A stretch of DNA of 64,000 nt from Candidatus Raymondbacteria bacterium RIFOXYA2_FULL_49_16 (GTDB lineage Bacteria; Fibrobacterota; OXYB2-FULL-49-7; XYB2-FULL-49-35): positions 62,001 to 126,000 of the forward strand of contig MFYT01000058.1 of NCBI GenBank assembly GCA_001789205.1. The letters are read 5' to 3'. Shown in pieces: positions 6,118 to 18,278 of this stretch (the first letter of the stretch is position 1; each line of letters begins with the position of its first letter). The notes under the pieces are model-generated. The model was not told the origin of the DNA, did no database searches, and saw only the letters and a program-made list of their open reading frames with translations. The position numbers and the translations under genes were made by a program.

Positions 6118-6780
6118 TCAGAATTGTCCGGTCTTAAGGAATAAAAGTGTTTTCTTGCGGACGAAATCGTTGTCCATAATAAAGGTATGCCCGCATGGGG
6201 CGATAAAGAACCCTTTTTCGCCCGGGCAGTGCGCTTGCGCCGGAGGCACTTTGGCATCATACTCGCCTGCGATGACCCCTGTTGCAAACGGGACCGGGCC
6301 AAGCCTATTTACAAAACTATGCGTATCGGCGGTGAGCATGGCCAGGGATGGCCCAAGCAGGAAATTGGCAACCGGGTTTTTAACAAACACATCGGCCCAG
6401 GGTGAGCCCCTGTTGGGCGGTGCGAGCATGACCACCCTGAGGATGGTACAGGGCAGCTGTGTACGCGCCAGCCGGGTAAGCAAATGCCGTACCACAATGC
6501 CGCCCATGGAATGGGTTACAAAGAAAAGCGTATCAGTCCTGCCATATTTCCAAACCTCCCTAAGCAGCGAGATTGAGAAGACAGGAATGCTGTCGCTGGT
6601 GCTATTGTATCCAAAATTATGAACAACAAAACCCTCTTTTTCCAGGTATTTTCCTAGAAAATGCATGGACAAGGTTGAGCGTCCCAGTCCGTGCACCAGA
6701 ATGATATGCTGGGCTGAATGGAGATCCGGATGAAAAAACAGGAAACAGAAAAGGCTGATAGCGGCTGCGCTATGCCGCAT
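6118..6780 (-). CDS. Secreted alpha/beta hydrolase (lipase/esterase-like)
   Basis: About 220 aa from the ATG at 6780. A hydrophobic N-terminal stretch (AAAISLFCFLFF) acts as a signal sequence. The lipase core follows: oxyanion region ILVHGLGRS, nucleophile elbow THSMGG with the catalytic Ser, an Asp candidate in GEYDAKVPP, and the His in APCGHTFIM. The order Ser-Asp-His fits the alpha/beta hydrolase fold of triacylglycerol lipases and PGAP1-like esterases. It overlaps the end of oppF (stop at 6770), so it is probably transcribed at the tail of the peptide-transport operon. An alternative ATG at 6795 adds five residues. The substrate is unknown. Confidence 0.85.
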   Translation of the reverse strand: MRHSAAAISLFCFLFFHPDLHSAQHIILVHGLGRSTLSMHFLGKYLEKEGFVVHNFGYNSTSDSIPVFSISLLREVWKYGRTDTLFFVTHSMGGIVVRHLLTRLARTQLPCTILRVVMLAPPNRGSPWADVFVKNPVANFLLGPSLAMLTADTHSFVNRLGPVPFATGVIAGEYDAKVPPAQAHCPGEKGFFIAPCGHTFIMDNDFVRKKTLLFLKTGQF

Positions 6781-7729
6781 ATGGACACCGTACATACCTG
6801 TTACCGCCTCTGTCCTTTAGCGCAGGATGGTTGACGCGGCAATCCTCCTGGACCATGGGACAGCGCGTGTGAAATACGCAGCCGGATGGAGGATTTGAAG
6901 GGCTGGGTACATCACCAAACAGGACGTTCCGTTTTCGCAAAGGGGAAATTTTTGGTTCGGGTACGGCCAACAACAACGCCTTGGTGTAGGGATGGAGCGG
7001 CTGGGAGCACACGATACTGGCTGGTCCGGTCTCCATGACATGCCCCAGGTACATGACAACAATAAAATCTGAGATGTGTTTGACCACACTCAGGTTATGG
7101 GAAATGAAAAGATATGAAAGGCCGAATTCGCGTTTAAGGTCGATGAGTAAATTAATGATCTGCGCCTGTACCGACACGTCGAGGGCCGAAACCGGTTCGT
7201 CGGCGATGATGAGCGACGGCTTGAGCGCAAGCGCGCGCGCAATGCCGATGCGCTGACGCTGGCCGCCGGAAAATTCGTGCGGGTAGCGGTTAACGGCCGT
7301 GCGCGGGAGACTGACCACGTTGAGAAGGTCGAGTACTTTACTTTCAATATCCGCGCCACGACAGATATTGTGCACGATAAATGGTTCGGCAAGGATGCTT
7401 CCCACGGTCATACGCGGATTGAGAGAACTCAAAGGGTCCTGGAAGATGATCTGCAGGTTCCTGCGCTCGGTCTTGAGCGCCTTTCCCTTGAGTGTGAGCA
7501 GGTCGCGGTCTTTAAATAAAATACTGCCAGAGGTAGGCTCAATAAGACGCAGAATACAACGGCCAACCGTGGTTTTGCCGCACCCTGATTCACCCACCAG
7601 GCCCACCACCTGGTTCTGCTCAATGGTAAAGGAGACGTCGTCAACCGCTTTTACGTGTCCTGAAACACGCGATAGCACACCCGTTGTTATTGGAAAGTAT
7701 TTCTTAAGATTTGAAACGTTTAAAAGCAT
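6770..7729 (-). CDS. oppF: Oligopeptide ABC transporter ATPase OppF
   Basis: 319 aa. Walker A is GESGCGKTT at about residues 46-54, the signature is FSGGQRQRIGIARAL, and Walker B is SLIIADEPVSALD. The C-terminal oligopeptide/dipeptide extension includes the motif GCVFHTRCP. It is one of the two ATPases that power a type I peptide importer. In ordinary opp operons oppF follows oppD directly. Here its partner oppD lies 1.8 kb upstream, beyond a two-gene cassette. The ATG at 7729 is 13 nt downstream of the end of that cassette. Confidence 0.93.
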   Translation of the reverse strand: MLLNVSNLKKYFPITTGVLSRVSGHVKAVDDVSFTIEQNQVVGLVGESGCGKTTVGRCILRLIEPTSGSILFKDRDLLTLKGKALKTERRNLQIIFQDPLSSLNPRMTVGSILAEPFIVHNICRGADIESKVLDLLNVVSLPRTAVNRYPHEFSGGQRQRIGIARALALKPSLIIADEPVSALDVSVQAQIINLLIDLKREFGLSYLFISHNLSVVKHISDFIVVMYLGHVMETGPASIVCSQPLHPYTKALLLAVPEPKISPLRKRNVLFGDVPSPSNPPSGCVFHTRCPMVQEDCRVNHPALKDRGGNRYVRCPYAA

Positions 7730-7742
7730 ATGAATACAAAAA

Positions 7743-8354
7743 TTATTTTTCTGTAGAGGAAGGACTGAAAGAGTATTCTTTTATTTTAGTCACCAAACCC
7801 TGCAAACTTTTTGAATGCCGACATGCATCATCAACACTCCATGAATTTAGAATGAATTCTCCAATGCAAGTATTATAATTCCTTCCTATTGAAGCAGTAC
7901 CCTGGGGAATAATGTCTTTTTTAATGTTTCGTTTTGAAGAACGTTTTGCGAGATTTATGATATATTCTTTGGGGTTATCGATACCTTCTGGATCCCTGTC
8001 TATGATATTGTCCGACACCCCAAGGAAAGACGCAAAATTTTTCCGATCGGCCAACAGCCAGGCTTCGGCTTCGCGTATTGCGATTCTGAACAATAAATTT
8101 CCATCCTTTTTGAATGCGATCCATTCGTCGATTAGAGAAGCAGCACATATCGCGCGATCAAGATCAGTAAGAATTATGAAAGGGAAATGTTTTGCGGCTT
8201 TATTAAACGCCAGCATATTTTGTTTGATATATGAATTACCTCTTTTTCCAAGAACTCTATAAATTTCAAAATTTCTTGACGAATACCTTATCACCCTGCG
8301 TAAAACAAACAGATGGATATCATCTTCTACTACAAGATTTACGTTGATACTCAT
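7743..8354 (-). CDS. TOPRIM/DUF4276-like protein, partner of AAA ATPase
   Basis: 203 aa. Motifs typical of TOPRIM-like DUF4276/RloB-type proteins are visible: an acidic residue early (VVEDDIHLF), TDLDR at about residue 62, and REAEAWLLADR near residue 95. Together these could form the metal-binding acidic site of a nuclease or primase fold. The ATG overlaps the stop of the upstream ATPase as ATGA, so the two are translationally coupled. Base composition is AT-rich compared with the flanking opp genes. ATPase plus TOPRIM pairs are common in phage-defence loci, for example OLD-type and Gabija-type systems. I infer a defence role but see no direct proof, and the exact family is not certain. Confidence 0.65.
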   Translation of the reverse strand: MSINVNLVVEDDIHLFVLRRVIRYSSRNFEIYRVLGKRGNSYIKQNMLAFNKAAKHFPFIILTDLDRAICAASLIDEWIAFKKDGNLLFRIAIREAEAWLLADRKNFASFLGVSDNIIDRDPEGIDNPKEYIINLAKRSSKRNIKKDIIPQGTASIGRNYNTCIGEFILNSWSVDDACRHSKSLQGLVTKIKEYSFSPSSTEK

Positions 8355-9520
8355 GAATCAAGCTGTAATGAAAGCTGTTCAACTCTCTCTGGGACAGTCG
8401 CGGGTATGACAACATCAGCAACGCTCATCCCCGACTGCAGAAGAACTTTTACTTCCTTATCGTGGGAGGCATTTTTTATCTCCGTGCCTTCTTCACCAGG
8501 AACGAGCATTAAGACTTCTTCAGCCGCAATTCCCTTATTCGACAACAAATCAAAACTATGCGTTGTTAAGATTACCTGACGGTTGCCGAACTTTTTCTTC
8601 TGTTGCAACCTTGAGATAATTTCTGCTAACCGGGTAACAATGCCGGAATGCAATGACAACTCAGGCTCTTCCAACAAAATAGGTTTGTTCCCATCCAAGA
8701 GCGCCCAAAAAAGTCCGATGAATCGTAGCGTTCCATCGGAAAACTGATCTTCCCATTGCCGCGCACCTTTAGCACGCCAGTGCCGATAGATTGCCTCAAG
8801 ATGCGGAATACCCATTCTATCCTTAACAAGACCTAAATCCTGAAACTGGGGTACAGCATACTTAAGAGCCTGTTGAATCCGTCTAAAAAAAGCCTCTCGT
8901 GTCTTTTTATTTGTTTTATTAATTCTTTCTATCAAATCTCTTCCATAAAAATCTTCTTTTGTTCCTGAACCGATAAATGAATCGGGGTCGCGAAGAAGTT
9001 GTGGGACAACATGTAAATAATTTATCGAATTAAAAAAATCCGCAATATCTCTAAACTTTGCATTGGAATTTGGTTGTTCTAGGTAAGTGTATTCCAATAA
9101 TTTATCGTCTTTGTCAGACTCGCTCGGCCGCTCGCAAACTAATTCTTTCTTATCATTCCAGACCTTTTCATATTTTAATCTTGCTTTTGGTTTAACTACC
9201 CCACCACCAGTTTGAGTGAATCCTATTCCGTACTTCCAAAGCAATTGCCCTTTGGTTTCATCTTTAATTTCTACCTCAATTTCAATATCAGGACGGCTGC
9301 GTGCAGCTAAACACCGAATTTTAGTAACGCCTCCCCTGACTTTTACTGCTTCTTGGAGACCACCACCAGATCTTGCAATATCCCTTAAAAACCTGAACAC
9401 ATCGAGCAAATTGGATTTCCCTGAAGCATTTGGTCCGACGATAAATACCCTATCATACAAATCAATTTCTGCATGTTGGAAGTTTTTCCAGTTTTGAATC
9501 TTTAATTTTGAGAATATCAT
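8351..9520 (-). CDS. AAA (AAA_21/OLD-like) ATPase of putative defence pair
   Basis: 389 aa. SMC/ABC-like ATPase: N-terminal IQNWKNF strand, Walker A GPNASGKSN at about residues 30-38, ABC-type signature FSDGTLRFIGL, Walker B ILLEEPELSLH and H-loop LTTHS. Between Walker A and the signature lies an insert of about 220 residues, as in the AAA_15/AAA_21 family of RecF/OLD-like enzymes. The TOPRIM domain found fused in OLD proteins is a separate downstream gene here. I chose the ATG at 9520; a GTG at 9526 would add two residues. The gene is visibly AT-rich: the 60-base line from 9001 has 17 G/C, against 38 in the line from 10081 in oppD. This fits horizontal acquisition. Confidence 0.82.
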   Translation of the reverse strand: MIFSKLKIQNWKNFQHAEIDLYDRVFIVGPNASGKSNLLDVFRFLRDIARSGGGLQEAVKVRGGVTKIRCLAARSRPDIEIEVEIKDETKGQLLWKYGIGFTQTGGGVVKPKARLKYEKVWNDKKELVCERPSESDKDDKLLEYTYLEQPNSNAKFRDIADFFNSINYLHVVPQLLRDPDSFIGSGTKEDFYGRDLIERINKTNKKTREAFFRRIQQALKYAVPQFQDLGLVKDRMGIPHLEAIYRHWRAKGARQWEDQFSDGTLRFIGLFWALLDGNKPILLEEPELSLHSGIVTRLAEIISRLQQKKKFGNRQVILTTHSFDLLSNKGIAAEEVLMLVPGEEGTEIKNASHDKEVKVLLQSGMSVADVVIPATVPERVEQLSLQLDS

Positions 9521-9554
9521 AATCACCTACATATAGAAAATAACTATTACTTCC

Positions 9555-10517
9555 CTAGGGAACCATATGAAAACAGGCGGCCATATGGCCCGGGCCGGCC
9601 GGAAATTCCAGCGGCTGTGCCAGACACTTCTCTGTTTTCCGTTCGCACCGGTCATAGAACCTGCACCCAACAGGATAGCAGGTTGGATCGGGCAGGTTCC
9701 CTGGAATCACATGGAGCCTTTCCTGCGTTTCATCGAGCAAGGGCACGGCATGGAGCAGCCCCACAGTATAGGGATGCTTCGGATCTTCGTATATGTCGCG
9801 GGTTTTACCACGTTCCGCTACCTTGCCGGCGTAGAACACGGCCACAGAATCAGCCAGTTCCGCGACAATACCGAGGTCGTGCGTGATGAATATCATACCC
9901 ATGTCGCGCGTTTGCTTGAGCTCGTGGAGCAGTTCGAATATCTGCGCTTGGATAGTGACATCGAGCGCCGTGGTGGGTTCGTCCGCAATGAGCAGCGCCG
10001 GATCGCACGAGAGGGCCATGGCGATCATGACGCGCTGCCGCATGCCGCCTGAAAGCTGGTGCGGATATTCGCCCGCGCGTTTATGCGGGTCGGGAATCTT
10101 CACCAGCCTGAGCATCTCCACGGCCTGTTCCCGCGCCTCCCGTTTTGACAGGTTGCGGTGCAGCAGGAGCGCCTCTTCGATCTGATAGCCGCAGGTAAAG
10201 ACCGGATTCAGCGAGGTCATGGGATCCTGAAACACCATGGCAATGTCGTTGCCGCGCATTTTCTGCATTTCTGATTCGGACAGCGCCAGCAGATCCTTGT
10301 TGTTGAAAAAAATCTGGCCGTTGGTGATTTCTCCCGGCGGGCTCTGGATAAGCCGCAGAATCGCCAGAGCGGTCACGGACTTGCCGCAGCCGGATTCGCC
10401 CACAATGCAGAGTGTTTCGCCCTTATTCACAGAGAATGAGACGTCGTCGACAGCGTGGACAACGCCGTCGTCGGTATTGAAGCGGACCGAAAGGTTTTTT
10501 ACTTCGAGTAGGGGCAT
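9555..10517 (-). CDS. oppD: Oligopeptide ABC transporter ATPase OppD
   Basis: 320 aa. Walker A GESGCGKS at about residues 40-47, signature LSGGMRQRVMIAMAL, Walker B LLIADEPTTALD, and the C-terminal oligopeptide-transporter extension with CYPVGCRFYDRC. It is the partner of OppF in energising peptide uptake. GC-rich, like the rest of the opp operon. Its start lies seven nucleotides after the toxin gene stop, and its stop is followed by the AT-rich ATPase/TOPRIM cassette. Both flanks are therefore inserted genes rather than the expected oppC and oppF. Confidence 0.93.
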   Translation of the reverse strand: MPLLEVKNLSVRFNTDDGVVHAVDDVSFSVNKGETLCIVGESGCGKSVTALAILRLIQSPPGEITNGQIFFNNKDLLALSESEMQKMRGNDIAMVFQDPMTSLNPVFTCGYQIEEALLLHRNLSKREAREQAVEMLRLVKIPDPHKRAGEYPHQLSGGMRQRVMIAMALSCDPALLIADEPTTALDVTIQAQIFELLHELKQTRDMGMIFITHDLGIVAELADSVAVFYAGKVAERGKTRDIYEDPKHPYTVGLLHAVPLLDETQERLHVIPGNLPDPTCYPVGCRFYDRCERKTEKCLAQPLEFPAGPGHMAACFHMVP

Positions 10518-10524
10518 ATTGAGC

Positions 10525-10833
10525 TTAGCGCCTTTTTCTTAAAATTCTACGAATCGCATGCTGATCACGCGCGCAATGAAATAGCCCATAAATCCAGATA
10601 GCGTCCATGTCGATCCGATAATATATGGCATAAGGAAATCTGCGCAGTAGACATCTTCGGAAATCACCATGCGCCTTCCTGTTTGAAAATGGGAAATCGC
10701 AGTCACCCTCAATGGCCGCAACGACCATCCTGGAAAAAGCATCGCCCAATCCCCGCGCTTTTCCCTGATACCATCTATGGCCCTCCAGGACTTCTTGTTT
10801 GAATTCAGGGGTAACTGAAACGGGGTATTTCAT
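10525..10833 (-). CDS. RelE/ParE-family toxin
   Basis: 102 aa from the ATG at 10833. It has the ParE/RelE pattern: an N-terminal strand (YPVSVTPEFKQEV), an amphipathic helix region with HRWYQGKARGLGDAF, then the basic strands RRCLLRRFPYAIYYRID, and a C-terminal FHCARDQ strand. ParE-type toxins poison gyrase and RelE-type toxins cut mRNA on the ribosome; I cannot tell which applies. The ATG overlaps the antitoxin stop (ATGA), the usual antitoxin-first arrangement. The pair sits between oppC and oppD on the same strand, which is an unusual place. Confidence 0.85.
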   Translation of the reverse strand: MKYPVSVTPEFKQEVLEGHRWYQGKARGLGDAFSRMVVAAIEGDCDFPFSNRKAHGDFRRCLLRRFPYAIYYRIDMDAIWIYGLFHCARDQHAIRRILRKRR

Positions 10834-11057
10834 TTTGCTGACCGTAGTATCCGCTTTTTCACATCTTCCCAAGAACTCCAGAAACGCGAATTCAAAGGAT
10901 ATTTTTTCAATCTCCGGTCCAGCTCTTTCTTATGACTTTCCGGAATCGGCACATCTTCTTCCGTGGCGGTCACATCGTCCCAGAGATCCTCAAGCAGTAA
11001 AATTCTTTCCGGTACTGAAAGTCTTCTGAATTCCCGGACTGCTTTTGTTTTTACCAT
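10830..11057 (-). CDS. Antitoxin, addiction-module component family
   Basis: 75 aa. It matches the short antitoxin family once called putative addiction module component: RRLSVPERILLLEDLWDD near the N-terminus, then an ELDRRLKKY helix and a C-terminal SWEDVKKRI. AAGGAG lies six to eight bases before the ATG at 11057. It is coupled by ATGA overlap to the RelE/ParE-like toxin. In related modules the antitoxin neutralises the toxin and represses the promoter of the pair. A non-coding gap of about 70 nt to oppC may hold that promoter. Confidence 0.85.
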   Translation of the reverse strand: MVKTKAVREFRRLSVPERILLLEDLWDDVTATEEDVPIPESHKKELDRRLKKYPLNSRFWSSWEDVKKRILRSAK

Positions 11058-16206: not shown

Positions 16207-17364
16207 TCAAAGCCATTGTTCCAAATTTTCGAGATATCGCTCCCATGGCAACACCTGAACATTCCCTAAAAAGAATGGCTGACCTATTGCTCCAACAAGG
16301 AAAAGAGGAACATCTGGGTTGTTTTGACCAAAATCCCTAAGGCCACGGCAATCCGGCTGTGCAACCGAAGTACCAGACTTAATCTCAATGGCCGCTTGTA
16401 TTGTACCATGCTTTACAATAAGCAGGTCCACTTCCGACCCGCTTCTAGTACGCCAGTAGAACAACTCGGCCTCGCTTCGTCGATATGAAATCATGCGATA
16501 CGTCTCCAGAACAATGAATTGCTCAAAGAGCCTGCCGCGACGCACCGGATCGAGACCAGCAGTCAATTGTTTCTGCAATGCGTTAGCGATACCCGTATCG
16601 AACAAATAATACTTTGGATGGGCAGAAACTCGCTTCCCAACGCTTTTAATATAAGGATCAATTCGTATCCCGATGAGCGTATCTTCAAGGATGGAATAAT
16701 AGGACTTGACAGAATTGCATGACAGTCCGCATTCCCTGCCTATCCCGGTTTGGTTTACTATTTCACCGTTTCTGGCCGCGGCAATATCGAGGAAACGTGA
16801 GAATCCGGCCAGATTTCGGGCAATGCCTTCACTCTGGATTTCCTCGCGAAGATAGGTATCCGCATAGGCTGCCAAGGTCTCCTGCGTTTCTATCTCGCTT
16901 TTTCCAGCGCAGCCAACCAATGTTCCGAAGCGAAGCGCGGTCTCCAGGTTGAAATTTTCTTTTTGTTCCAGATAGGTCAGTGGATGAAGTCTCCGTTCCA
17001 CAGCCCTACCGCCCAGGAGATTGACCCCGCCTCTGCACAATTTTCTCGCGCTCGATCCAGTCATAATAAACCTTGTGCCTGGATAATCTGCAATAAGTGA
17101 ATGGATTTCGTTCAATAGGGCCGGTACACGCTGGATCTCATCGATGACGATTTCAGTGACGCCTTCCTTTTCTATTTTATAAACAGAATTTCTCCGAAAT
17201 TGTTCAGGGGCCTTAAGATAGAGGTGGTATTCTTCCGAATGGAGAAGGTCAACATACCATCCATTTTTCAAATTCTCCCTGACCAGCGTGCTTTTTCCGG
17301 TTTGCCGAGCCCCGAATAAAAAGAAGGAGCTTTTTTCTGGTAAATTTATAAGTCTTTTAATCAT
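16207..17364 (-). CDS. AAA_14/DUF4143 ATPase with PD-(D/E)XK-like C-terminus
   Basis: 385 aa. Walker A GARQTGKST at about residues 18-26, Walker B EIVIDEIQRVP and sensor FIMTGSSARKL define the AAA_14 domain. The C-terminal DUF4143 region contains RTRSGSEVDLLIV followed by AAIEIKSG, a PD-(D/E)XK nuclease-like pattern. These proteins are widespread, patchily distributed and of uncertain function. It stands alone between lipM and rnc with its own AT-rich upstream region. Confidence 0.88.
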   Translation of the reverse strand: MIKRLINLPEKSSFFLFGARQTGKSTLVRENLKNGWYVDLLHSEEYHLYLKAPEQFRRNSVYKIEKEGVTEIVIDEIQRVPALLNEIHSLIADYPGTRFIMTGSSARKLCRGGVNLLGGRAVERRLHPLTYLEQKENFNLETALRFGTLVGCAGKSEIETQETLAAYADTYLREEIQSEGIARNLAGFSRFLDIAAARNGEIVNQTGIGRECGLSCNSVKSYYSILEDTLIGIRIDPYIKSVGKRVSAHPKYYLFDTGIANALQKQLTAGLDPVRRGRLFEQFIVLETYRMISYRRSEAELFYWRTRSGSEVDLLIVKHGTIQAAIEIKSGTSVAQPDCRGLRDFGQNNPDVPLFLVGAIGQPFFLGNVQVLPWERYLENLEQWL

Positions 17365-17406
17365 GATTCATTTTTTACGGTAAATAATGCAACATAATTA
17401 ACATAA

Positions 17407-17435
17407 ATTATATCTTATTTAAATTCAAGTGATAA
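17407..17435 (-). promoter_or_regulatory. Predicted sigma-70-type promoter of the DUF4143 gene
   Basis: On the minus strand TTATCA (17430-17435), a 17-nt spacer and a perfect TATAAT (17407-17412) lie about 43 nt upstream of the ATG at 17364. The whole 17365-17489 gap is very AT-rich. The -35 box matches consensus at only four of six positions, so this is moderate evidence. Confidence 0.45.
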
Positions 17436-17489
17436 AATGAAAATACTATACATTATTTATGTATAATTTATAAAATTAGGGAACGGAAA

Positions 17490-18278
17490 TTATTTTTCCG
17501 ATTTGATATCCGGGTTCTTCTCCAGGAAATCGAGCGCGGACCGGGCAGCGGCCTGCTCAGCCTCTTTTTTGCTCTTTCCCTGGCCGGCGCCAAAATGTTT
17601 TCCCCAGAATTTTACGCTGATGTCAAACGTTTTAGCGTGGTCCGGCCCAGATTCAGATGTTACTTCGTATTGGGGAATCTCGTTGCCCCGCGCCTGCACG
17701 AATTCCAGAAGCCTGCTTTTAAAATTGCTGTAATCTTCGTCGGTGAGCATCCTGTCGAGCATGACCAGCACATGTTTTTTAATGAACGTCTCGGCCGCGG
17801 CGTAGCCGCCATCGAGATAAATTGCCGCAATGAGCGCCTCGAACGTATTACTGTTGATTGAAAACCGTGTGCGGCCGCCGGTTTTTTCCTCGGACCTGCT
17901 CAACTTGAGCTGGTCGCCCAGATTGATGCGGTCAGCCGCCTCCTTGAGCGCTTTCCGGGAAATGAGCAGGGACCTGATCCGGGAAAGTTCGCCCTCTTCC
18001 TTGTCCGGATACCGGGAGAAGAGAAAATTGCTTGCCACGAGTCCCAGCACTGCGTCACCAAGAAACTCGAGACGCTCGTTGGACATCAGATTGCTGTTGG
18101 AAACGGCAAAGGCGTATGACCGGTGTGAAAGCGCATGATCGAGCAGGGACGTATCGCGGAACACATAGCCAATGCGCCCTTCAAACCCATCGGCGCTGCC
18201 GACGGTCCGCGAAAACAACCGGCCGATCAGCCGTTTTAGGACATGCACACGAATTACGTTTTCCTGAGTACCAGGCAC
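17490..18278 (-). CDS. rnc: Ribonuclease III
   Basis: 262 aa. RNase III signature NERLEFLGDAVLGLVAS at about residues 65-81, with a second acidic site in the FEALIAAIYLDGG stretch. The C-terminal double-stranded RNA-binding domain ends GAGQGKSKKEAEQAAARSAL. It processes rRNA precursors and structured mRNAs. The start at 18278 overlaps fabF by about 25 nt; a GTG at 18248 is an alternative. The order acpP-fabF-rnc is conserved in many bacteria. Confidence 0.95.
   Translation of the reverse strand: MPGTQENVIRVHVLKRLIGRLFSRTVGSADGFEGRIGYVFRDTSLLDHALSHRSYAFAVSNSNLMSNERLEFLGDAVLGLVASNFLFSRYPDKEEGELSRIRSLLISRKALKEAADRINLGDQLKLSRSEEKTGGRTRFSINSNTFEALIAAIYLDGGYAAAETFIKKHVLVMLDRMLTDEDYSNFKSRLLEFVQARGNEIPQYEVTSESGPDHAKTFDISVKFWGKHFGAGQGKSKKEAEQAAARSALDFLEKNPDIKSEK

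Follow-up and report, generated by a model that had tools for sequence, protein, structure and literature searches.

A HEC-01 gene pair inside an opp operon

Two adjacent genes that lie between oppD and oppF of an oligopeptide-transporter operon form a candidate anti-phage system of the HEC-01 type, which was probably inserted there in an ancestor and has been kept in line with opp transcription (we put the probability of this reading at roughly 0.7). Both genes are on the minus strand of the 64-kb window, by which we mean the whole stretch of DNA analyzed here. The upstream gene, HEC-01A (8351–9520, with its ATG at 9520), encodes a 389 aa ATPase of the ABC class (SMC/Rad50/OLD-like), and the downstream gene, HEC-01B (7743–8354), encodes a 203 aa DUF4276 protein with a TOPRIM fold that is a probable nuclease. 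The two ORFs overlap by ATGA, as read from the sequence. A preliminary description of this DNA had already placed an ATPase and a small ORF between oppD and oppF on one strand, joined by this overlap, and had picked out the motifs TDLDR and REAEAWLLAD; its coordinates are exact, the ORFs and the sequence confirm the placement and the overlap, and both motifs are present in the small protein. Upstream of the pair, oppD (9555–10517, minus strand) is separated from HEC-01A by a 34-nt junction (9521–9554, minus strand) that lacks a minus-strand terminator-like site. Downstream, a 13-nt junction (7730–7742, minus strand) leads from HEC-01B to oppF (6770–7729, minus strand). Both flanking genes are intact (Pfam ABC_tran and oligo_HPY) and encode ordinary oligopeptide-transporter ATPases, and the same operon contains oppC, oppB, and an SBP_bac_5 binding protein.

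On the evidence of its model matches, the gene pair is a member of HEC-01, a catalogued but little-studied candidate two-gene anti-phage system. Searching PADLOC-DB with hmmscan, we found that HEC-01A matches PDLC04180 over residues 1–385 of 389 (E = 1e-144, 480 bits) and that HEC-01B matches PDLC04194 over residues 3–193 of about 203 aa (E = 4.7e-56), so that both genes are covered nearly full length. Pfam adds AAA_21 for the ATPase (E = 1.9e-34) and DUF4276 for the small protein (E = 2.6e-7, which narrowly clears the curated cut-off). The genes share component matches, gene order, adjacency, length, and motifs with the catalogued HEC-01, and differ from it only by their site inside an opp operon and by their host. 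These HMM searches, which the preliminary description had called for, support its view of the pair as an ATPase plus TOPRIM defense cassette, in that both genes match models of a catalogued defense candidate; a cassette of this kind that was acquired is the likeliest reading. Its further suggestion of a distinct two-gene class falls, because PADLOC-DB already lists HEC-01A and HEC-01B as two genes and because PARIS likewise has separate ATPase and Toprim genes. The HEC-01 pair in opp defines no new system and, apart from its landing site, the find is mostly ordinary; a nested site inside an operon is itself unusual, though not unprecedented (PMC6755086).

According to PMC12988326, HEC stands for Hma-embedded candidate, the candidates come from a 2024 preprint by Payne et al. 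that is cited there, and antiviral activity has been reported for several HECs, with HEC-06 mentioned by name. The literature searched contained no infection data on the HEC-01 pair or a close homologue, did not say if HEC-01 had been among the HECs assayed, and did not mention ‘DUF4276’. Its relevant mention of HEC-01, in PMC12724379, is in a detection list for Desulfovibrio piger.

The ATPase and its TOPRIM-fold partner

HEC-01A contains a Walker A motif (GPNASGKSN), an FSDGT signature, a Walker B motif (LLEEPELSL), and a TTHS switch, and these ATPase motifs are mostly kept across five homologues. The protein, earlier labelled an ‘AAA ATPase’, is a P-loop protein of the ABC/SMC/OLD type and not of the AAA+ type. 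In a fold search with its model, which is of moderate confidence (pLDDT 75), the top PDB matches are PtuA chains, which come from Septu and retron systems; Rad50 ranks lower. Although PtuA is thus closest in fold, its partner in Septu is the HNH nuclease PtuB, whereas the partner of HEC-01A is a Toprim-fold protein. The weaker matches of HEC-01A to AriA, AbiLi, GajA, and OLD models appear to reflect the common ATPase domain. The AriA match (PDLC02980) was rejected since it agrees with Pfam AAA_21 in length and in the range aligned, and so apparently represents the generic domain.

When the PDB was searched by sequence, nothing credibly related to HEC-01B came up, and only a fold search gave matches there. 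The AlphaFold2 model used for that search, built from five homologues, has a mean pLDDT of 83.8, and its strands and helices follow one another as in Toprim domains, with strands at residues 3–9, 29–35, 59–65, and 87–93. It shows the β-α fold, the Glu after β1, and the DxD after β3 by which a TOPRIM domain is recognized. Its best PDB matches are 6nk8 and 6njv, each the C-terminal region, with the Toprim domain, of a class 2 OLD nuclease; the match probability is 0.99–1.00 with an overall TM-score of only 0.43–0.45, and the Toprim match therefore rests on the core of the fold. The Pfam match and a modelled fold nearest to OLD Toprim domains together uphold the earlier assignment of the small protein to DUF4276/TOPRIM.

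Residues E10, D64xD66, E95xE97, and K129 of HEC-01B are invariant in the five homologues. In the Burkholderia OLD nuclease, metal A is liganded by E400, D455, and D457, metal B by E404, T506, and E508, and K562 is catalytic (PMC6755086). When the two proteins are mapped onto each other by residue order and secondary structure only, without side-chain superposition, E10, DxD, ExE, and K129 of HEC-01B fit the pattern of E400, D455/D457, T506/E508, and K562. The ExE of HEC-01B and the TxE of Burkholderia OLD have equal two-residue spacing, and the strand-end positions agree. A conserved second glutamate four residues past the first (compare E404 of Burkholderia OLD) is absent from the five homologues. 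The likeness to class 2 OLD Toprim domains provides a structural reason to expect that the DUF4276 protein of HEC-01 is a nuclease.

Several named systems resemble the pair in part. PARIS (AriA/AriB) likewise has a two-gene architecture of ABC ATPase and Toprim nuclease and has been proposed as a Class 4 OLD (PMC10568477), with the ABC ATPase AriA as sensor and the Toprim tRNase AriB as effector (PMC12409363). The AriB model gave no match to HEC-01B in PADLOC up to E = 1, so the partner that defines PARIS was not found here. In AbiL (AbiLi/AbiLii), an ATPase is likewise linked with a Toprim domain (PMC12409363). The AbiLi model also matches HEC-01A (E = 3e-24), though at 84 bits against 480 for the HEC-01A model, and its partner model AbiLii, searched to the same limit, gave no match to HEC-01B. 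OLD and Gabija, which represent class 1 and class 2 OLD, have an ATPase of the same class as HEC-01A, and the fold of HEC-01B is an OLD-type Toprim; the ATPase and Toprim parts of those systems share one chain, whereas here they are two separate ORFs. The UvrD-like helicase GajB, which accompanies GajA in Gabija, is absent beside the pair, where the neighbors are oppD and oppF.

Horizontal gain of the pair

Empty sites in relatives, base composition, and phylogeny support horizontal gain of the HEC-01 pair, as the preliminary description had proposed. The opp operon was compared with those of two relatives, of which one belongs to the same order and the other to the same phylum. Both (G001, locus L070; G021, locus L071) have a collinear oppABCDF operon with 48–65% identity to the opp genes of the window, and both lack the pair between oppD and oppF, which overlap by 11 nt in one relative and are 19 nt apart in the other. 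More broadly, an oppD search of 41 genomes found oppD-like and oppF-like matches neighboring each other in ∼20, with spacings, judged by eye from the search output, of 13 to ∼430 nt between the aligned parts as against ∼1.9 kb here.

At 39.3%, the insert has the lowest GC content for a 1.8 kb stretch in the window, where ∼0.1% of equal-length stretches are as low. The two HEC-01 genes are at 36.8% and 40.6% GC, compared with 48–57% in oppA–F. The base counts first used to argue for AT-richness, 17 G/C in the 60-nt line from 9001 and 38 in the line from 10081, are correct; 60-mers with ≤17 G/C make up 13 of 1066 in the window, so one such line is unremarkable alone. The preliminary description had named two outcomes as contrary to its reading, namely homologues of the same composition in all relatives and a small protein with no match to TOPRIM/DUF4276, and neither occurred. 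Elsewhere in the window, an ORF at 16207–17364 (minus strand), presumably an AAA_14/DUF4143-type ATPase from a reading of its sequence only, has a low-GC start region (37–40% at 17001–17750).

At the edges of the insert we spotted, post hoc, an imperfect 15-nt direct repeat (13/15 identical; 7724–7738 and 9561–9575). An 11/12 match was reached by two of 400 random region pairs, and the repeat is only a weak hint. We did not accept it as a target-site duplication, since part of the oppD copy is conserved coding sequence that relatives share.

In the phylogenetic tree, HEC-01A groups with a copy from Methylosinus (Pseudomonadota) and three copies from viral contigs (support 100/100). Its identity to these copies and to two further viral matches is 44–51%, while same-class ATPases in its own phylum are only 19–23% identical. 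This genome contains one copy of the pair. In a scan of genome contigs with a single query sequence, Methylosinus alone matched. There, the HEC-01 pair (L045:6850–9762) lies 74 nt downstream of a metabolic-looking gene on the same strand, which we take, from its sequence, to be asd. The three viral-contig copies have both genes, which match the HEC-01 models, and adjoin CI- and CII-like regulators (L078), tail, endolysin, and DNA methyltransferase genes (L079/L081), or terminase genes (L080). A further viral contig (L086) ends before the partner position. On a 78 kb viral contig, a HEC-01A homologue with 51% identity (L085:6001–8440) has no adjoining HEC-01B and is followed by another AAA_21 ATPase and then an Eco57I-type methyltransferase, so the pairing is perhaps not always required. 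Plasmid and named-phage records gave no match to HEC-01B and only distant ATPases for HEC-01A (≤27% identity over most of the length, ≤41% over short pieces).

These comparisons bear on whether the pair might be a housekeeping module that works with opp, in DNA repair or as an accessory to peptide transport, and not in defense. The resemblance of HEC-01A to Rad50, RecF, and SMC proteins and the intact opp genes would suit such a role, as would the similar place of the Methylosinus pair behind a presumed metabolic gene. However, collinear opp operons of relatives do without the pair, its composition is aberrant, its phylogeny crosses phyla, and phages carry it, and we consider a housekeeping role highly unlikely.

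Expression and proposed working

A consensus scan of 7743–9600 detected no minus-strand promoter-like or terminator-like site, although such scans are weak. With junctions of 34 and 13 nt and no promoter- or terminator-like site, read-through from opp is likely, and use of the opp promoter by the HEC-01 pair is plausible. Another reading of the pair is an inactive remnant, kept only since its loss would upset oppF expression. Both frames are full length, however, and neither the motifs nor the ATGA overlap is damaged, making a remnant very improbable.

A second two-gene module is found at another opp junction. Between oppC and oppD, an Unstab_antitox (PF09720) antitoxin gene identified by Pfam (10830–11057, minus strand) is followed by a ParE-like toxin gene (10525–10833, minus strand; Pfam E = 0.0043, below the cut-off). 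The two overlap by ATGA, and the pair as a whole (10525–11057) has a lower GC content than oppD. It is absent from the oppC/oppD junction of both collinear relatives, which have nothing there. It is conceivable, though unlikely, that small two-gene modules with translational coupling, such as HEC-01 and the toxin-antitoxin type, use the junctions of this conserved operon to land in. If so, immunity genes would be expressed alongside nutrient uptake, without a promoter of their own or a defense island.

The neighboring module also lends some weight to the idea that the HEC-01 pair is a toxin-antitoxin-like element or a selfish passenger, with a nuclease held by its ATPase, and is kept by addiction instead of for phage defense; the role of the PARIS ATPase AriA as sensor for the Toprim effector AriB (PMC12409363) agrees with such an arrangement. 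Addiction and defense are compatible, but the matches to HEC-01 models and the carriage by phages favor defense, and we regard a purely addictive passenger as unlikely.

We infer that the pair is most likely an ATP-gated Toprim nuclease system that blocks phage. The ABC-class ATPase HEC-01A would assemble as a sensor or scaffold that holds the putative nuclease HEC-01B, and a phage trigger at infection would alter its ATPase state. HEC-01B would then cleave nucleic acid, either DNA or tRNA, by Toprim metal catalysis, and this cleavage may either halt the phage directly or disable the cell, as in PARIS, AbiL, and OLD/Gabija. The opp insert offers a clean case of a candidate defense system gained inside a housekeeping operon, with relatives that retain the empty site and homologues that are borne by phages.
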